The notes beneath the pieces are model-generated. The model did no database searches. It was not told the DNA's origin and saw only the letters and a program-made list of their open reading frames with translations. The position numbers and the translations under genes were made by a program. From Actinomycetota bacterium (GTDB lineage: Bacteria; Actinomycetota; Actinomycetes; Nanopelagicales; Nanopelagicaceae), in NCBI GenBank assembly GCA_016870715.1, contig VGAL01000009.1:1-40240 (forward strand): a stretch of 40,240 nt of DNA, read 5' to 3'. This document shows positions 5,894 to 31,596 of the stretch, piece after piece (the stretch's first letter is position 1; every line of letters starts with the position of its first letter).

Positions 5894-5904
5894 TTATTGA
5901 GCTG

Positions 5905-5978
5905 TGTCCCCGACCAGAATCGAACTGGTGACCTACCGCTTAGGAGGCGATCGCTCTATCCAACTGAGCTACGAGGAC
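5905..5978 (-). tRNA. tRNA-Arg (anticodon CCT)
   Basis: A 74-base cloverleaf: seven-pair acceptor stem GTCCTCG/CGGGGAC with discriminator A, D arm GCTC/GAGC, anticodon stem ATCGC/GCGGT with loop CTCCTAA (anticodon CCT, reading AGG), and T arm ACCAG-TTCGAAT-CTGGT. CCA is not encoded; the gene is followed by CAG. Confidence 0.96.
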
Positions 5979-22090: not shown

Positions 22091-22176
22091 TGGTGGCGGG
22101 TAGAGGATTTGAACCTCTGAAGGCGTAAGCCGGCGGATTTACAGTCCGCTCCCATTGGCCGCTCGGGCAACCCGCC
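22091..22176 (-). tRNA. tRNA-Tyr (anticodon GTA)
   Basis: A class II tRNA: acceptor stem GGCGGGT/ACCCGCC with discriminator A, anticodon loop CTGTAAA (GTA, reading TAC/TAT), a long variable arm as normal for bacterial tRNA-Tyr, and T arm with GTTCAAATC. The CCA end is encoded (22091-22093), unlike the tRNA-Arg in this window. Confidence 0.96.
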
Positions 22177-25467: not shown

Positions 25468-26613
25468 TTAGGTAAATGTCTTTCGAACCGCCACGGCCAA
25501 TGCCTCGTAGTTTTCAGGAGTGTTGTACAACATACCTGAGATTCGTAAGTAGTACTTCTCTGCGATAAATGAAATTGGCACCTCAACCTTAAATTCCTCC
25601 GCAATTTTTACCTGCACTGCCGCGGCACCGTCGCGACCACCTGACATCTTATGAATAGGTACAACTCCAAGAGGGAGGAAATCAGCGCGAATTTCCTCCT
25701 TTGAAATCCCGAGTTCTTTCATGACAAGTTCTCGTCCGAACATCATTCGCTGATGATTGGCCTTTCGTACCCGCTCCCAACCCAATTGTGAGAAGAAATC
25801 GATAGCGCTAGGTGCACTCAGCCATGATGTTGGATCAACAGTTCCGAGCATGTCCCAGGGGTAGGGATAAGGCTCATCATCACGCCATGACACTATGAGA
25901 GGGCGTAAAACCTCCTGCCAACGAGGTGCGATTCGCAATACTCCCACTCCCAAAGGGGTTGAGACCCACTTGTGAAGATTGCCAAACCAAAAATCTGCAT
26001 CCAACTTATCGAGATCAATATCTACAGTTCCTGGCGAATGCGAAGCGTCCACAACATAAACCACTGAATGAGCCTTACATAGAGCGCCTAATTCATAGAT
26101 TGGAAAACTACGAGCCGTAGCAGAGGTGATGTGATCCACCACTAGTAATCGAGTTTTTTTCGTGATTCCAGCGGTTATCTTTTCAATTACCCGCTGATCA
26201 GAATCAAGGTAGTCGACATCAATTTCGACCAGCTTGGCTCCTGATGCTTCACAGGCTCGAATCACAGCCTTCGTAACAGCCCCATATTCTTGGTTGAGCA
26301 CAATTACTTCATCACCGGAGTTCAGCGGGAAACCTCGCATCACAGTGCTGGCTCCCTCAGTTGTATTTCGAATCAATGCAATCTGGTCTGCTTGTTGACC
26401 TAGAAAGCGCGCAACAGATCCTCGCGCTGTTGCTACTTCTTCCTTAAGTTCCCTGGCAAAAAACTTCACTGGATTCTTCTGAATTCGATCTCGCCACTCT
26501 TGCTGAACTTTCTGGACAGAAATTGGTACTGCACCGAAGGAGCCATGATTGACGTGGTGATAAGCAGGGTCCAGGCTCCAATGAGATTTGAGTTCTTGAA
26601 GATCGAATTCCAT
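25468..26613 (-). CDS. CefD-like class V aminotransferase / isopenicillin N epimerase family
   Basis: A 381-residue PLP enzyme. Family marks: the opening YHHVNHGSFGAVP typical of isopenicillin-N epimerase-like proteins, the PLP Asp in VVDASHSPG (D189) and the Schiff-base lysine K215 in FGNLHKWVSTPLG. Members act as epimerases, desulfurases, lyases or transaminases, so the reaction is not fixed; a beta-lactam role is unlikely without other antibiotic genes. It is the last gene of the ABC importer operon, two bases after the second permease, so it probably processes the imported compound, which would then carry an amino group. Confidence 0.88.
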   Translation of the reverse strand: MEFDLQELKSHWSLDPAYHHVNHGSFGAVPISVQKVQQEWRDRIQKNPVKFFARELKEEVATARGSVARFLGQQADQIALIRNTTEGASTVMRGFPLNSGDEVIVLNQEYGAVTKAVIRACEASGAKLVEIDVDYLDSDQRVIEKITAGITKKTRLLVVDHITSATARSFPIYELGALCKAHSVVYVVDASHSPGTVDIDLDKLDADFWFGNLHKWVSTPLGVGVLRIAPRWQEVLRPLIVSWRDDEPYPYPWDMLGTVDPTSWLSAPSAIDFFSQLGWERVRKANHQRMMFGRELVMKELGISKEEIRADFLPLGVVPIHKMSGGRDGAAAVQVKIAEEFKVEVPISFIAEKYYLRISGMLYNTPENYEALAVAVRKTFT

Positions 26614-26615
26614 TG

Positions 26616-27440
26616 CTAACCCTTAACTATCCCAGCGGAGAGTCCACTAATCATGAATTTAGACATCAAACCAAACATAATCATTGTTGGAATGATTCCA
26701 ATCATGACTGAGGCGGCTAGCCCACCCCACTCGATGAAATACGCACCTATGAACGATCGTTCCGCTACAGGAAATGTCTTATTGGCATCCGAATCTATGA
26801 GGACCATAGCTAAGAAAAGTTCATTCCAACATTGCACGAAAGAAAAGATGAAGGTTGCAGCAACTCCTGGTAGCGCCACCGGAAAAATTACTCTAAATAG
26901 AGCTGAGACTCTATTACACCCATCGATAAGGGCTGCTTCATCGAGTTCGGGAGGGATTTGTTGTAAGAATCCCCTAAGCATCAACGTGGCAAAGGGAATC
27001 ATGCCCCCCAAATAGCATAGGACCAGAGCAATTAGGGTATTGAGTAAATTCAATCGTGACAGTAAAAGATAAAGTGGAGCCAGAGCAATCAAGCCGGGGA
27101 TCATTTGGGTAACTAAAAAGACGAGCATGACCTGGGATTTACCCTTGAATCGATAACGCGCCAATGAGTAAGCGCCTAGCATGCCAATAAAAATAACAAG
27201 TGCCGATGCTGCAATTGCAACGACAAAGCTATTCTTCAAGTACGTTCCAAATGCATAATCTCGGAATAGAGCGCGATAGCTCTCAAGCGTTGAATTGCTC
27301 CGTGGCCAGAAGAAATGTTTAGTTACTTCACGTACTGGACGTATTGAAGTCAAAAACATCCAGTACAGCGGGAAAATAGTAAAAAGGAACCAAATAGTTA
27401 GGACCGTGACTTTAGTTCCTTTGGAAAAACCCTTGAGCAT
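26616..27440 (-). CDS. ABC importer permease, CUT1 (MalG-like) type
   Basis: A 274-residue inner-membrane permease with six predicted helices. The EAA loop that docks the ATPase is present: ELDEAALIDGCNRVSALFRVIFPVALPG region (about 180-205). The protein opens with a short cytoplasmic tail and a helix carrying PLYWMFLTSIRP, the typical MalG-like start. It is the MalG partner of the permease encoded two bases upstream. No ATP-binding subunit is encoded in the operon, so a shared ATPase (MsmK/MsiK type) elsewhere is expected. Confidence 0.93.
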   Translation of the reverse strand: MLKGFSKGTKVTVLTIWFLFTIFPLYWMFLTSIRPVREVTKHFFWPRSNSTLESYRALFRDYAFGTYLKNSFVVAIAASALVIFIGMLGAYSLARYRFKGKSQVMLVFLVTQMIPGLIALAPLYLLLSRLNLLNTLIALVLCYLGGMIPFATLMLRGFLQQIPPELDEAALIDGCNRVSALFRVIFPVALPGVAATFIFSFVQCWNELFLAMVLIDSDANKTFPVAERSFIGAYFIEWGGLAASVMIGIIPTMIMFGLMSKFMISGLSAGIVKG

Positions 27441-27442
27441 GG

Positions 27443-28360
27443 TTACTTGTCACCATCCTCAATCTTGACAGCAAGTAGGTAAAAGACTGAGAAAATAAAG
27501 AGGATTATCAAAATGAACATGCCTAAGGCAGAACCTGCACCCCAGTCTTGATCGTAGGTGATTTTCTGCACGAGCCAGGAAGACAAGATATGGGTCTGCT
27601 CGTTAGGGCCACCACTAGTCATACCAAAGATCAAATCAGGGAAATTAGTAATCCAGATAACGCGGAGCAGAATAATGAGAACCAAAGTATTTTTGATGAA
27701 AGGAACGATGACAAGAAATAACCGTTGTCGCGAGGATGCTCCATCGAGTTCAGCTGCCTCGAGTATTTCTTTTGGAACGCCCTGTAGGGCAGCAAGAATC
27801 ATGATTACAAAGAAGGTGACGCCGTACCAGATATTGGCGATGATTACCGCAGCCATTGCCCACTTATCGTTGGATAACCACGGAATTGGTTTATCAATAA
27901 GGCCGATTCCCTCAAGAATCGTATTCATGATTCCTAGGTTGTCATCGAAAATCCATTTCCAGATGAGCCCCATGAGGAATCCGGATAGCGCCCACGGAAT
28001 AAAAATAATTGCTTGATAGAGCCCTGAAAATTTAAATTTTGTATTGAGATACAGAGCCAGAACAAATCCGATTGTAAATTGGAAAAAGAGAGAAACAACG
28101 ACCCAGATTACCGAGTTCACCATAATTCGCTTGAAATGTAAGTCGTTGAAGATTACAGAAAAGTTTTGAAAGCCAGCGAAGTAAATGTCATCTTGAGCAA
28201 ATAACTTGAAGTTTTGAAGGGAGAGTCCAGCAGTTCTGATGACTGGGTAATAAATGAAGATACAAATTAGAATTAGTGCTGGAAGCAGGAACCAAAGTGG
28301 TGCAAGGATGTTTCGAGTCTTGCCGCTGTTCTTCTCTTGAATCCGAAAAGTGCTACTCAA
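27443..28360 (-). CDS. ABC importer permease, CUT1 (MalF-like) type
   Basis: A 305-residue permease with six helices; the EAA loop reads EILEAAELDGASSRQRLFLV followed by IVPF. The frame opens at a GTG at 28411, but I prefer TTG at 28360: it has a run of six G (GGGGGG) as ribosome binding site and the protein then starts directly before the first helix, while the extra 17 residues look unrelated to the family. It pairs with the MalG-like permease. Between it and the solute-binding protein gene lies a 12-bp perfect stem-loop that may lower permease expression relative to the binding protein. Confidence 0.9.
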   Translation of the reverse strand: MSSTFRIQEKNSGKTRNILAPLWFLLPALILICIFIYYPVIRTAGLSLQNFKLFAQDDIYFAGFQNFSVIFNDLHFKRIMVNSVIWVVVSLFFQFTIGFVLALYLNTKFKFSGLYQAIIFIPWALSGFLMGLIWKWIFDDNLGIMNTILEGIGLIDKPIPWLSNDKWAMAAVIIANIWYGVTFFVIMILAALQGVPKEILEAAELDGASSRQRLFLVIVPFIKNTLVLIILLRVIWITNFPDLIFGMTSGGPNEQTHILSSWLVQKITYDQDWGAGSALGMFILIILFIFSVFYLLAVKIEDGDK

Positions 28361-28420
28361 CTCGCTATCCCCCCTGCCTATGTATATATACGTATGACTT
28401 TTCTGCGACACATTAGAGAA

Positions 28421-28448
28421 CAGTGGTCGACATTTCTGTCGACCACTG
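28421..28448. repeat. perfect inverted repeat between binding-protein and permease genes
   Basis: CAGTGGTCGACA, four-base spacer TTTC, then TGTCGACCACTG: a perfect 12-bp stem. In the operon mRNA (minus strand) it folds just after the binding-protein stop. No T-run follows, so it is not a classical terminator; a 3'-end-protecting hairpin giving more binding protein than permease is the likely role, as in malE-malF. An operator is the alternative. Confidence 0.6.
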
Positions 28449-28484
28449 ACTCGTCGTGTTTTGGATTACGGTAGCGCTAGTCCG

Positions 28485-29822
28485 TTAGGACTTGCACTTA
28501 GGACCATCCCAGTATGCAGCCCATTGTTTGAGAGCATCCTCGGTCTTCAGATTGCCTGCAAACATCGCAGCCATATCTTTATCTGCTTGAGTGAAGAACT
28601 CGCCGAAGCATGGCTTCGCTCCATCGCTTCCATCAAGCTTGATCTCCTTAGGGTCCTTACCAATCTTGTCGTAGATAGCCCAGGCGCCAGTCTTAAAGAA
28701 TGGATCCTTTGCTGCTGTCTTGGTGATTGGGCCAACGCCATAGGCGCGGGCGAAGATTGAGGCTTGTGGGTCAGAAGAGATGAAAGCAAGGAAATCCGTG
28801 GCAATGTTCTTGCACTTCGATGCCTGGGTTACCGACCAGCCGCCACCGCTTACATCCTGTGCGGAGTAACCAGTTGGACCCTTTGGCATTTGCGCCATGA
28901 TCCATTTTCCGCTCTCAAATGGTGCGTACTTATCCTCAACAATTTGGATGACCTCATTATCTTGGATTAAGTAATTGGCAATTCCATCGATAAAGCCCTG
29001 CACCATCTCTGGGTAACCCCATGAGACGGATGCTGGTGGGGAGACGTCATTCCAGATCTTCATGAGGAGATCTAGAGCTTCCTTTGACTTTGGATTGTTG
29101 AACATCGATTTGCCATCCTTGTTGTAATAACCGCCAGCATTAAGGTCTGGCGCGTTATATGCGCGGATGATGAAGATTGCTTGAGTGAAAGAGGCACGAG
29201 CGCCACGCATCGAATAAATGTATGACTTATCTGTCTGTGCTTTCTTTGCATTCAGGATATCTGTCCATGTAACTGGAATGGCTACTCCAGCATCCTTAAA
29301 TGGTTGGACACGAACGAAGGAAGCCTTGACATAGTAGCCATTTGGCACCATGTACATCTTGCCTTTGCCTTTATTGATCTGCGCTTGCAACTGTGAGTAC
29401 TCAGTTAGGCCAGTCCATGCCTTCGTCTTGGTGAAGTATGGATAGATATCTGCGAGTTGGTTAGCAGAGAGGGCTTGTCCCATGATTGCGCCTGCTGGCT
29501 CAACGATGTCTACAGCCTTGGCTTGTAGAAGTTGAGTGATCTTGGCTGGTGAATCTGCCTGCGATGGAGAGATGATCTCAACCTTGACTCCAGGACGGGT
29601 CGATTCAAATTGACGGGCAAATGCATTAAGCAGTGGAGTACGGGCTGGACCAGCAAAATACTCGATTACTCGAATCTTCACAGGTTTTGCCTTAGTCGGC
29701 TTGCAGTTCCATGTTTTATCTTTAGAAGCTGCGCTGCTCGTAGTCACAGTCATAAGACTGAGACCAAGAGCTGCGACAGCCGCCAAGGAAACTACCTTGC
29801 GACTGGTTAGGTTCTTTTTCAA
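28485..29822 (-). CDS. ABC importer solute-binding protein, family 1
   Basis: A 445-residue exported binding protein. The signal peptide covers residues 1-32 (ending SSAA, no lipobox, so it is not a lipoprotein unless anchored otherwise). The mature chain is a type-1 (sugar-type) solute-binding fold: IRVIEYFAGPARTPLLNAFARQF at the N terminus, then GYYVKASFVRVQPFKDAGV and the domain crossing near WIMAQMPKG. Four cysteines (near 40, 363, 404 and 443) could form disulfides. Start is TTG at 29822 with GGGGG just before. The ligand is unknown; the CUT1 type suggests a sugar, polyol or derivative. It is the first gene of the operon with two permeases and a CefD-like enzyme. Confidence 0.92.
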   Translation of the reverse strand: MKKNLTSRKVVSLAAVAALGLSLMTVTTSSAASKDKTWNCKPTKAKPVKIRVIEYFAGPARTPLLNAFARQFESTRPGVKVEIISPSQADSPAKITQLLQAKAVDIVEPAGAIMGQALSANQLADIYPYFTKTKAWTGLTEYSQLQAQINKGKGKMYMVPNGYYVKASFVRVQPFKDAGVAIPVTWTDILNAKKAQTDKSYIYSMRGARASFTQAIFIIRAYNAPDLNAGGYYNKDGKSMFNNPKSKEALDLLMKIWNDVSPPASVSWGYPEMVQGFIDGIANYLIQDNEVIQIVEDKYAPFESGKWIMAQMPKGPTGYSAQDVSGGGWSVTQASKCKNIATDFLAFISSDPQASIFARAYGVGPITKTAAKDPFFKTGAWAIYDKIGKDPKEIKLDGSDGAKPCFGEFFTQADKDMAAMFAGNLKTEDALKQWAAYWDGPKCKS

Positions 29823-29843
29823 TTTTCCCCCAGATTGGTTTTC

Positions 29844-29859
29844 AATCTCTTTCGAGATT
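29844..29859 (-). promoter_or_regulatory. hairpin in the binding-protein mRNA leader
   Basis: On the minus strand AATCTC-GAAA-GAGATT forms a six-pair stem closed by a GAAA tetraloop about 15-20 bases before the GGGGG ribosome binding site. A role in mRNA stability or translation is inferred. Read on the plus strand, the stem is followed by TTTT, but no plus-strand gene lies in front of it. Confidence 0.35.
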
Positions 29860-30268
29860 TTTTACGAGAGTAATTGAGCAGGTTTTCATTTACAATCAAA
29901 TTGTGGGTTATTGGTAGAAGTTTATTTAACTGTGACACTAGATAGTAGAAAATCTACAAAGTGCTTTCGTGCATCTGGACGAAACAACCGCCTACTCAAT
30001 TAAGTTTTCTGAGATCCGGCCCCTGAATCAGGGAAGTATTCGAAATTACCCTGGAGATTCTTCACATAAGCACCACTTGGTATACGGCGGTTTCCGGCTA
30101 CCTGAAAACGAGCAAAATCGCCATTTCTGCCAAGAACCCTCGACCAAACGTTGAGGAAATAGTGAGGAAAACCCCCTTGTGCGCCCATTCCTTCAGGAGT
30201 AGAAATTCCCTAACTTCATTGAGAGTAGACAAAAGGAAATCAATGAGGCTTCGGATCGGATAACAACT

Positions 30269-30482
30269 ACATAAATAGCAATATTTATGTAAAACGCAAC
30301 TGATCATCGCGGAGTTGGTACACGTAAGGTTCGAGCCGTAGAAGGCGCCCATTGTGCGTAACTAGGAGACTAGTTACATCGTGGATGTGATGTAAGGATC
30401 AGCTCACATCGCGCGGTGAAGGCCGAAGGAGATGCGCGCCGGCGAAGAGTTAAGGCCCCTGGAACTGATACTTCCAGGGGCC
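30269..30482 (+). ncRNA. candidate structured RNA (or operator cluster)
   Basis: In 214 bases there are: ACATAAATA-GCAA-TATTTATGT (30269-30290), GTAACTAG-GAGA-CTAGTTAC (30358-30377), GATGTGA with TCACATC around a 13-base loop (30384-30410), and GGCCCCTGGAA with TTCCAGGGGCC (30454-30482). Only when read on the plus strand do the first two close with GNRA tetraloops (GCAA, GAGA). CTGATC (30300-30305) can also pair with GATCAG (30397-30402) inside the third loop, a possible pseudoknot. I cannot match it to rnpB, ssrA, SRP RNA, 6S or any riboswitch I know. The last stem may instead end the minus-strand gene at 30541. Confidence 0.3.
30454..30482 (-). terminator. strong stem-loop after the DUF4236 gene
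   Basis: GGCCCCTGGAA and TTCCAGGGGCC form a perfect 11-bp GC-rich stem with a seven-base loop, 58 bases after the DUF4236 stop on the minus strand. It is followed on that strand by TTAACTCTT, a weak T-rich tail, so it is a plausible terminator of the kynU-DUF4236 operon. A terminator for a plus-strand RNA is less likely, since no T-run follows on that side. Confidence 0.5.
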
Positions 30483-30540
30483 AACTCATATTCTCAATCC
30501 TTCTCTCCTGGATTCCATGAAAGACACGCCAGAACTGTTA

Positions 30541-31596
30541 TCAATCTTCTGCACGTAGGGCAGTAATCCGCTCCATTACTTCTGGATATTTGCTATCGGC
30601 TAAGACGATCTTCTCTAATTCCTTGAGCGCTTGCCCTCGTTTGCCCTGTCGCTGGTAAATGTTGGCACGCTCCCAAAGCGCTCGATTATGAACCTCTTCA
30701 TCCAATGATCGCTTGGCAATCACCTTTTTAATAGCTTCAAGCGCGCCATCGTGAAATCCCAATTCAGAGAGGGCAGCAGCGCGCATGATAAAAAGCATCC
30801 CTGTTGCTTCATCTTCTAACTCAAGATCTTCAGTGGAATCGAGTACATCTTGAAATTTTTTCTCAGCAAGCTCGATATCCACCACTGAAACGGCACTCAA
30901 CTGATTGGCATCTAACATCTCCAGAACCTTAAAGGCGCTCACGCTATCGCCAGCATCCTGGAGAATCTCGGCGTAGATGAAACCAAACGCAGAAGCAGAG
31001 AATGATTCATCGAACCAAATTCCAGGGGTGATCTGAATCTTCATATTTAGTAATGGAAAGTACTTGCGCGCCTCATAGGTGCCAAAGGCATTTTTCCGAT
31101 TACTCCACACCTCCCCTGCGCTCTTGAGTAAGTCAGGAAAGTTCTCGTCATTACGCGCTCCTGCCAAACAAGCAAGTGCTAAGCAGGTGTATTTGATCTT
31201 TGAATACTTCTCAGAGAGGGCAATAGCTCGTTCGATGATTACCTTGTCGACGGGAACATTTTCACCCTCAAAATGTTCCCTCAAGAAACGGTAGAAAGCG
31301 CGCTCGCGCCTATTAGCAAAGAGACTCGGTTTTGGAGGTTTAGGTGGCAGATAAAAATCGTCATTCTCCTCTTCCGAAGTACGCCTAGAACGAGAGGACT
31401 TCGAACCACGAATTGAACTTCGTTCCACGTTGTACAACCCGGTGCCAGGAATTCCTGCAGAGGTATAGATATCGCCCTTGCTATTGATACTTACTCGAGC
31501 CCCTGGTACCCCCACCGATAAACCAATTGCGCTCTTACTAAAGTTAAGTCGCACTCCGGGGATAAGAGAGATGGAGCGACGGAAGCGTAAGGACAT
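30541..31596 (-). CDS. DUF4236 protein with TPR-like C-terminal region
   Basis: A 351-residue cytoplasmic protein. Residues 1-55 are a DUF4236 domain: FRRSISLIPGVRLNFSKSAI, GLSVGVPGARVSIN and AGIPGTGLYNV, a short Gly-rich beta domain of unknown function that is common in bacteria and phages. A Ser/Arg/Glu-rich, Pro-containing linker (about 60-95) joins it to a helical region (about 95-351) with repeated Ala/Leu/Glu patterns and a final ALWERANIYQRQGKRGQAL block that looks like tetratricopeptide repeats. Its ATG overlaps the kynureninase TAA by one base (TAATG), so translation is coupled. A link to tryptophan breakdown is not known. Confidence 0.85.
   Translation of the reverse strand: MSLRFRRSISLIPGVRLNFSKSAIGLSVGVPGARVSINSKGDIYTSAGIPGTGLYNVERSSIRGSKSSRSRRTSEEENDDFYLPPKPPKPSLFANRRERAFYRFLREHFEGENVPVDKVIIERAIALSEKYSKIKYTCLALACLAGARNDENFPDLLKSAGEVWSNRKNAFGTYEARKYFPLLNMKIQITPGIWFDESFSASAFGFIYAEILQDAGDSVSAFKVLEMLDANQLSAVSVVDIELAEKKFQDVLDSTEDLELEDEATGMLFIMRAAALSELGFHDGALEAIKKVIAKRSLDEEVHNRALWERANIYQRQGKRGQALKELEKIVLADSKYPEVMERITALRAED

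Follow-up and report, generated by a model that had tools for sequence, protein, structure and literature searches.

The window, by which we mean the whole stretch of 40,240 nucleotides of contig VGAL01000009.1 that was analyzed, contains a gene-free stretch of 718 bases (29823-30540) flanked by two minus-strand genes. A TPR-like gene occupies 30541-31596, and a sugar-importer operon occupies 25468-29822; the operon is present in the congeners G003 and G004 and cleanly absent from G001 and G002. Within the gene-free stretch lie four hairpins, at 30269-30290 (GCAA loop), 30358-30377 (GAGA loop), 30384-30410 and 30454-30482, and the GCAA and GAGA loops read as GNRA on the plus strand only. The letters CTGATC at 30300-30305 and GATCAG at 30397-30402 are perfectly complementary over six bases each. 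A preliminary description, made from the sequence alone, had pointed out the gene-free stretch, the four hairpins and the plus-only GNRA loops, all of which held; the interval it assigned to the element (30269-30482) was too short, as the element extends from near 30212 to about 30490 and is preceded by a promoter at 30177-30206. The segment 30212-30490 was more stable than dinucleotide shuffles on the plus strand (z = -6.6), and 30250-30500 gave z = -5.0 on the plus and -5.4 on the minus strand against such shuffles.

The gene borders, promoter, terminator, secondary structure, kissing helix and independence from neighboring genes were all established computationally, and we regard 30212-30490 on the plus strand as very likely a free-standing non-coding RNA gene with its own promoter and terminator, its expression being inferred. 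The criteria for a free-standing structured non-coding RNA, namely a promoter and terminator of its own and compensatory base changes, are both met. Against this reading stand the lack of transcript evidence and a start site, 30212, that is an inference from promoter spacing and the edge of the conserved structure. The features of the locus are as follows:

30136-30162, plus strand: upstream conserved element ACCCTCGA-N7-TTGAGGAAATAG with the inverted repeat CTCrA/TTGAG, found in all congeners and recognizable in genus g12
30172-30182, plus strand: -35 region CCCCCTTGTGC, with TTGTGC at 30177-30182, invariant in the genus
30196-30206, plus strand: -10 region GGAGTAGAAAT, with TAGAAAT at 30200-30206, at a fixed 17-nt spacing
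30212-30490, plus strand: the RNA, about 279 nt, with full-length covariance-model matches in 8 genera and a covarying structure of 82 pairs
30214-30248, plus strand: hairpin P1, 30214-30222 with 30240-30248, two-sided changes in 11 of 14 consensus-helix pairs
30251-30334, plus strand: P2, closing helix of domain A, UCGGAUC (30251-30257) with GGUUCGA (30328-30334), near-invariant
30264-30317, plus strand: P3, CAACU (30264-30268) with AGUUG (30313-30317), two-sided changes in 7 of 7 consensus-helix pairs
30269-30290, plus strand: hairpin P4, GCAA (GNRA) loop at 30278-30281, all 6 pairs of the inner helix covarying
30295-30311, plus strand: hairpin P5, from the alignment of homologs, its loop bearing kissing strand 1
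30300-30305, plus strand: kissing strand 1, CUGAUC, pairing with 30397-30402
30335-30443, plus strand: P6, GCCG (30335-30338) with CGGC (30440-30443) and GCGC (30345-30348) with GCGC (30436-30439), from the alignment
30358-30377, plus strand: hairpin P7, GNRA loop GAGA at 30366-30369, the GNRA kept while stem letters change
30384-30410, plus strand: hairpin P8, 30384-30390 with 30404-30410, two-sided changes in 7 of 8 pairs, its loop bearing kissing strand 2
30397-30402, plus strand: kissing strand 2, GAUCAG, pairing with 30300-30305
30454-30482, plus strand: terminator hairpin P9, GGCCCCUGGAA-CUGAUAC-UUCCAGGGGCC, 11 bp, 92.7% paired, two-sided changes in 11 of 15 pairs

The boxes CCCCCTTGYGC and GAGTAGAAATT are invariant in the genus, the spacer between them being fixed in length and variable in sequence. 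Distant homologs in other genera carry TTGACA-N17-TATAAAT at the equivalent position, with TAGAAAT aligned to TATAAAT in the genomes G007, G017 and G169. Invariant boxes around a variable spacer, together with the TTGACA/TATAAAT of the distant homologs, thus identify a promoter, from which the RNA would start about 6 nt further on (30212); its sigma70-like character is shown computationally, as an inference from sequence. The upstream element at 30136-30162 sits just 5' of this promoter and could be an activator or UP-type site for it. In many members the -10 box TAGAAAT is bracketed by complementary letters (GGAG..CTCC, GGGT..ACCC; 30196-30211 in the window, and in class members), an arrangement that might resemble an operator over the box.

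We found the locus DNA to be 89-95% identical in all four available congeners, one of which (G003) is IMCC26077, a strain of tribe acI-C1 (record CP015606.1; PMC5301498), and the RNA is present in 5/5 genomes of this genus of acI-C freshwater actinobacteria. Aligned conservation among relatives spans about 30136 to 30490. Partial matches were obtained in a second genus of the same family, a first covariance model built from seven sequences retrieved full-length homologs in two more genera, and a second model reached 8 of the 17 genera of the order, the window's genus included, a result confirmed with a third model. Of the order's 296 genomes, only 19 matched the third model, which may mean that the RNA is dispensable, fast-diverging, patchily present or incompletely detected; the covariance-model E-values are rough. 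A first blastn match in G025 was discarded as a chance match within an isochorismatase-like coding gene, and a scan of viral contigs with the neighboring binding protein found nothing.

Several observations on individual assemblies were made along the way. Contig RFXN01000017.1, labeled 'Candidatus Fonsibacter lacus', bears the acI-C locus with the RNA and is mislabeled or mis-binned. One genome with a full-length RNA also has a second, shorter (~150 nt) copy-like match (G232:C24:7593-7742). In two of the three g12 genomes (G015 and G044) the contig terminates within or next to the RNA gene, possibly as if assembly had broken at a repeat-like or variable RNA.

For covariation, 14 homologs were aligned with MAFFT and 82 pairs, belonging to 12 helices, were counted; this plain alignment was used since the covariance-model-fitted alignment of all matches (505 columns) was too wide to model. 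Paired cells amounted to 82.5% vs 68.5% in shuffles, two-sided changes were seen in 59 of the 82 pairs vs 38, and the covariation score was 0.445 vs 0.213, a value reached by none of 500 shuffles; when the partner was shifted one to three columns, pairing fell to 33-46%. Some of the scored sequences, which are related to one another, also served as the basis for drawing the structure by hand. The GNRA loops of P4 and P7 persist while stems and loop letters vary, the P4 loop being GCAA, GCGA, GUAA, GAAA or GAGA in most homologs and the P7 loop GAAA in other genera and, among congeners, any of GAGA, GAAA, GCAA and GUGA. A G-U pair in P2, compatible with the plus strand only, is unchanged in 14/14 homologs. 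P6 has a conserved UAGAAG bulge, and P6a is 98% paired with exchange among UA, CG and UG; the P9 heptaloop reads CUGAUAC in the window and CUCAUAC in class-wide members.

The kissing helix alone scored 0.436 for covariation vs 0.190 in shuffles, was 84.5% paired in the 14 homologs and showed two-sided changes in 4 of its 6 pairs. It occupies the same columns across lineages, joining the P5 loop with the P8 loop, and is spelled CUGAUC/GAUCAG in genus g1, GGCU/AGCC in g12, and CGACGA/UCGUCG or GACGA/UCGUC in other genera. The preliminary description had suggested a six-pair pseudoknot between 30300-30305 and 30397-30402 and had named compensatory changes in relatives as a check; the pseudoknot held, as a loop-loop kissing helix supported by covariation, and the compensatory changes were strong throughout, pseudoknot included. 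Its proposal of an independent plus-strand RNA is likewise supported by the conserved promoter and terminator, the GNRA loops and the invariant P2 G-U pair, with transcription inferred in the absence of RNA-seq. A long-range GAGT/ACTC pairing suggested by RNAalifold was dropped, its 5' strand falling inside the promoter.

Rfam searches of the window returned only two tRNAs, at 5904-5978 (Arg) and 22091-22176 (Tyr). The gene-free stretch gave no match to 6S, raiA or others up to E = 10, in keeping with the preliminary description, which had named no fitting family, and Rfam searches of the distant homologs and class members were also without a match, gathering cut-offs and relaxed ones alike. 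The RNA thus matches no catalogued family and is probably new, with the reservation that it may have been described earlier, as the literature searched and Rfam do not cover everything published.

Beyond the order, the third model gave full-length matches in family f34 (E 2e-12 to 5e-10), where the genomes G467 and G357 carry 2-3 copies each, and matched the terminator alone in many other actinobacteria. Matches limited to model positions 238-278 were at first dismissed as terminators, a dismissal that was withdrawn on finding a promoter and a GNRA-rich body upstream in almost all of them: a like promoter, CCCTTGYGC-N16..18-TAGAAAT/TAGAACT/TACAAAT, lies ~150-480 nt before the terminator and is followed by a hairpin-rich body. 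Of the 420-nt segments taken from these loci, true ones included, 2.3% contain the strict form of the promoter pattern. The 33 class-wide bodies contain 80 GNRA-capped hairpins vs 7.7 expected in shuffles, fold with z of about -2 to -11, measure ~135 to 460 nt and show no sequence alignment among them. Scanning all GTDB genomes with the promoter pattern matched acI-C genomes, three Jiangella species and one Micropruina, the other matches being without the RNA. Jiangellaceae RNAs keep the domain order, in which the GNRA hairpin P4 and the kissing hairpin P5 precede the GNRA hairpin P7 and the kissing hairpin P8; their P5/P8 loops are CCGAU/AUCGG, or CCGAC/GUCGG in one genome. The GACGA/CGUC kissing motif of the acI relatives is also found in Micropruina and families f21, f38 and f40, and as a P5/P8 motif it occurs in 5 of the 33 bodies vs 0.5 expected. 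In single GC-rich RNAs loop-loop complementarity did not exceed chance in shuffles, a test without power, and at class level the model scores derive largely from the terminator hairpin. Outside class Actinomycetes the terminator-loop pattern is essentially absent, as it is from genomes that we take, from their size, to be Streptomyces-like and Mycobacterium-like, an identity that is a guess. Two class members stand near protein-quality genes, L071 between trigger factor and clpP and L122 downstream of groEL; the neighbors of other members are unrelated.

Together, these data make it likely that the class-wide RNAs with the same promoter and terminator belong to the same family, a link that is strong but indirect because the bodies do not align and because, in GC-rich RNA, kissing loops of single sequences fall short of significance. 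A bolder reading, which we also consider probable, is that of an undescribed RNA family throughout the Actinomycetes (acI, Jiangella, Micropruina and some twelve other families), marked by a promoter of its own, a fast-evolving GNRA-studded body, a conserved kissing helix and a CUCAUAC terminator heptaloop; jointly with the class-wide reading, it would probably be a major structural or regulatory RNA. By this reading the family escaped notice because ordinary searches cannot keep up with its rapid sequence divergence. The alternative is that the order-level RNA is real and the class-wide RNAs form another family sharing only the type of promoter and terminator. In its favor are the variable, unalignable bodies, the terminator-dependent scores and the non-significant single-sequence kissing loops; against it are the same -35/-10 motif at the same relative place, the full-length matches of the f34 RNAs, the layout shared by Jiangellaceae and the GACGA/CGUC loops in four other families, and we consider it unlikely.

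As for the action of the RNA, the proposed sequence of events is inferred. A housekeeping-type RNA polymerase would transcribe the plus strand from the RNA's own promoter to its own terminator, and the transcript would form a hairpin at its 5' end followed by two domains, P2-P5 and P6-P8, GNRA-capped and joined by the loop-loop kissing helix. It would then act in trans, recognized by its shape, most probably either complexed with protein as the RNA component or as a decoy of some housekeeping protein machinery. We propose such a trans-acting scaffold or decoy because a compact, kissing-locked shape is conserved along with little sequence, in a variable context and behind a promoter of its own; trans action, a protein partner and function are inferred only, and no evidence identifies the partner or the function. 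RNA polymerase is a possible partner, at low probability, by analogy with Ms1 and CoRP, without binding data. Well-supported new structured RNA families are rare, and broad ones often serve basic machinery (RNase P, tmRNA, 6S, SRP, Ms1). The lineage that carries the RNA is among the most abundant bacteria of fresh water, and the RNA bears on which housekeeping or RNA-polymerase-binding RNA serves actinobacteria without a recognized 6S or Ms1. If the class-wide link is true, the RNA is found in many cultured actinobacteria, e.g. Jiangella, and is open there to deletion and pull-down; the promoter and terminator-loop signature finds members missed by sequence or structure searches.

The same RNA gene could also be read as one whose kissing loops act between molecules, yielding a symmetric multimer like ROOL, GOLLD or OLE. 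Covariation is blind to the difference between intra- and intermolecular kissing, and interactions that covariation had first revealed in GOLLD and ROOL turned out to bridge separate molecules (PMC12286853). There is, however, no direct evidence for a multimer, and raiA, of similar size, is a pure monomer (PMC12286853), so that we hold this to be improbable. Like raiA, OLE, ROOL and GOLLD, the RNA is ornate, stands alone, has an unclear function and abounds in GNRA/A-minor contacts and kissing loops (PMC12286853), but there is no sequence or covariance match in Rfam and the architecture is different.

A divergent Ms1 or 6S RNA, which would bind RNA polymerase as a stationary-phase mimic of an open promoter, is suggested by the similar length (Ms1 304 nt), the single-gene unit with its own promoter and terminator and the wide occurrence in actinobacteria (PMC4191392, PMC9130861). 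Like Ms1 (MTS2823, scr3559; mycobacteria and Streptomyces), the RNA is actinobacterial, ~300 nt long and without an ORF; Ms1, however, is a 6S-like long bubbled hairpin by HAD hydrolase genes, whereas the window RNA has two domains, a kissing helix, GNRA loops and other neighbors. A long 5'-3' hairpin with a central bubble is lacking, P1, P2-P5, P6-P8 and P9 being consecutive, and the Rfam 6S model does not match. Inspection by eye of the RNA's neighbors in the order showed no HAD-IB hydrolase, CpaE or oxidoreductase gene next to it in the genomes checked, and the TIGR01490 (HAD-IB) loci of 8 genomes lie elsewhere and are without the RNA's promoter. The terminator-loop pattern is also missing where Ms1 is expected (the genomes guessed to be Streptomyces-like and Mycobacterium-like), and we judge this explanation very unlikely. 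CoRP of Corynebacterium is likewise an actinobacterial RNA that is structured and free-standing, at its own site; it binds RNA polymerase in C. glutamicum, is 516 nt long and lies between tRNA-Gln/Glu genes, with homologs only in Corynebacterium (PMC11077062). In contrast, the window RNA has no flanking tRNA-Gln or tRNA-Glu genes, and kinship by sequence was left unjudged. With 6C RNA and other actinobacterial sRNAs in Rfam it would share trans action in actinobacteria, but there is no Rfam match at E<=10, and unlike 6C RNA it has no C-rich loops.

A cis-acting element, either protein-binding inverted repeats or an importer leader, is favored only by the location, upstream of the importer operon on the minus strand. 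G001 and G002 lack this operon, and G002 also the TPR-like gene, yet both retain the RNA, and in genera g4, g12 and g14 it stands between other, unrelated genes; these differing neighbors among congeners and genera therefore indicate a gene of its own rather than an importer leader or operator. Covariation, GNRA loops and the orientation of promoter and terminator moreover demand an RNA on the strand opposite the importer. The riboswitch or leader criterion, a place upstream of the regulated gene on the same strand, is not met, as the flanking genes are on the minus strand, the context varies and the terminator directly follows. A cis element is thus all but excluded, and with it the earlier alternative of protein-binding sites upstream of the importer operon failed. 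A small-protein gene, in which the short ORF ATGAGGCTTCGGATCGGATAA (30242-30262) following AAAAGGA would make the structure that of an mRNA, can be virtually ruled out: the SD-like AAAAGGA does lie 5-6 nt 5' of the ATG at 30242, but congeners differ in frame length, one and the same codon being either the stop TAA or the sense codon TAC, g12 has lost the ATG, and conservation tracks base pairs.

Past the end of the RNA gene, a motif GACACGC at 30523-30529 (GACACGCCAG in the genus) lies ~35-40 nt beyond the last hairpin and is kept in g1 and g12. CCACGC-like letters occur at a similar distance downstream in the f34 relatives, and the GACACGC motif may mark a 3' extension or a downstream signal.
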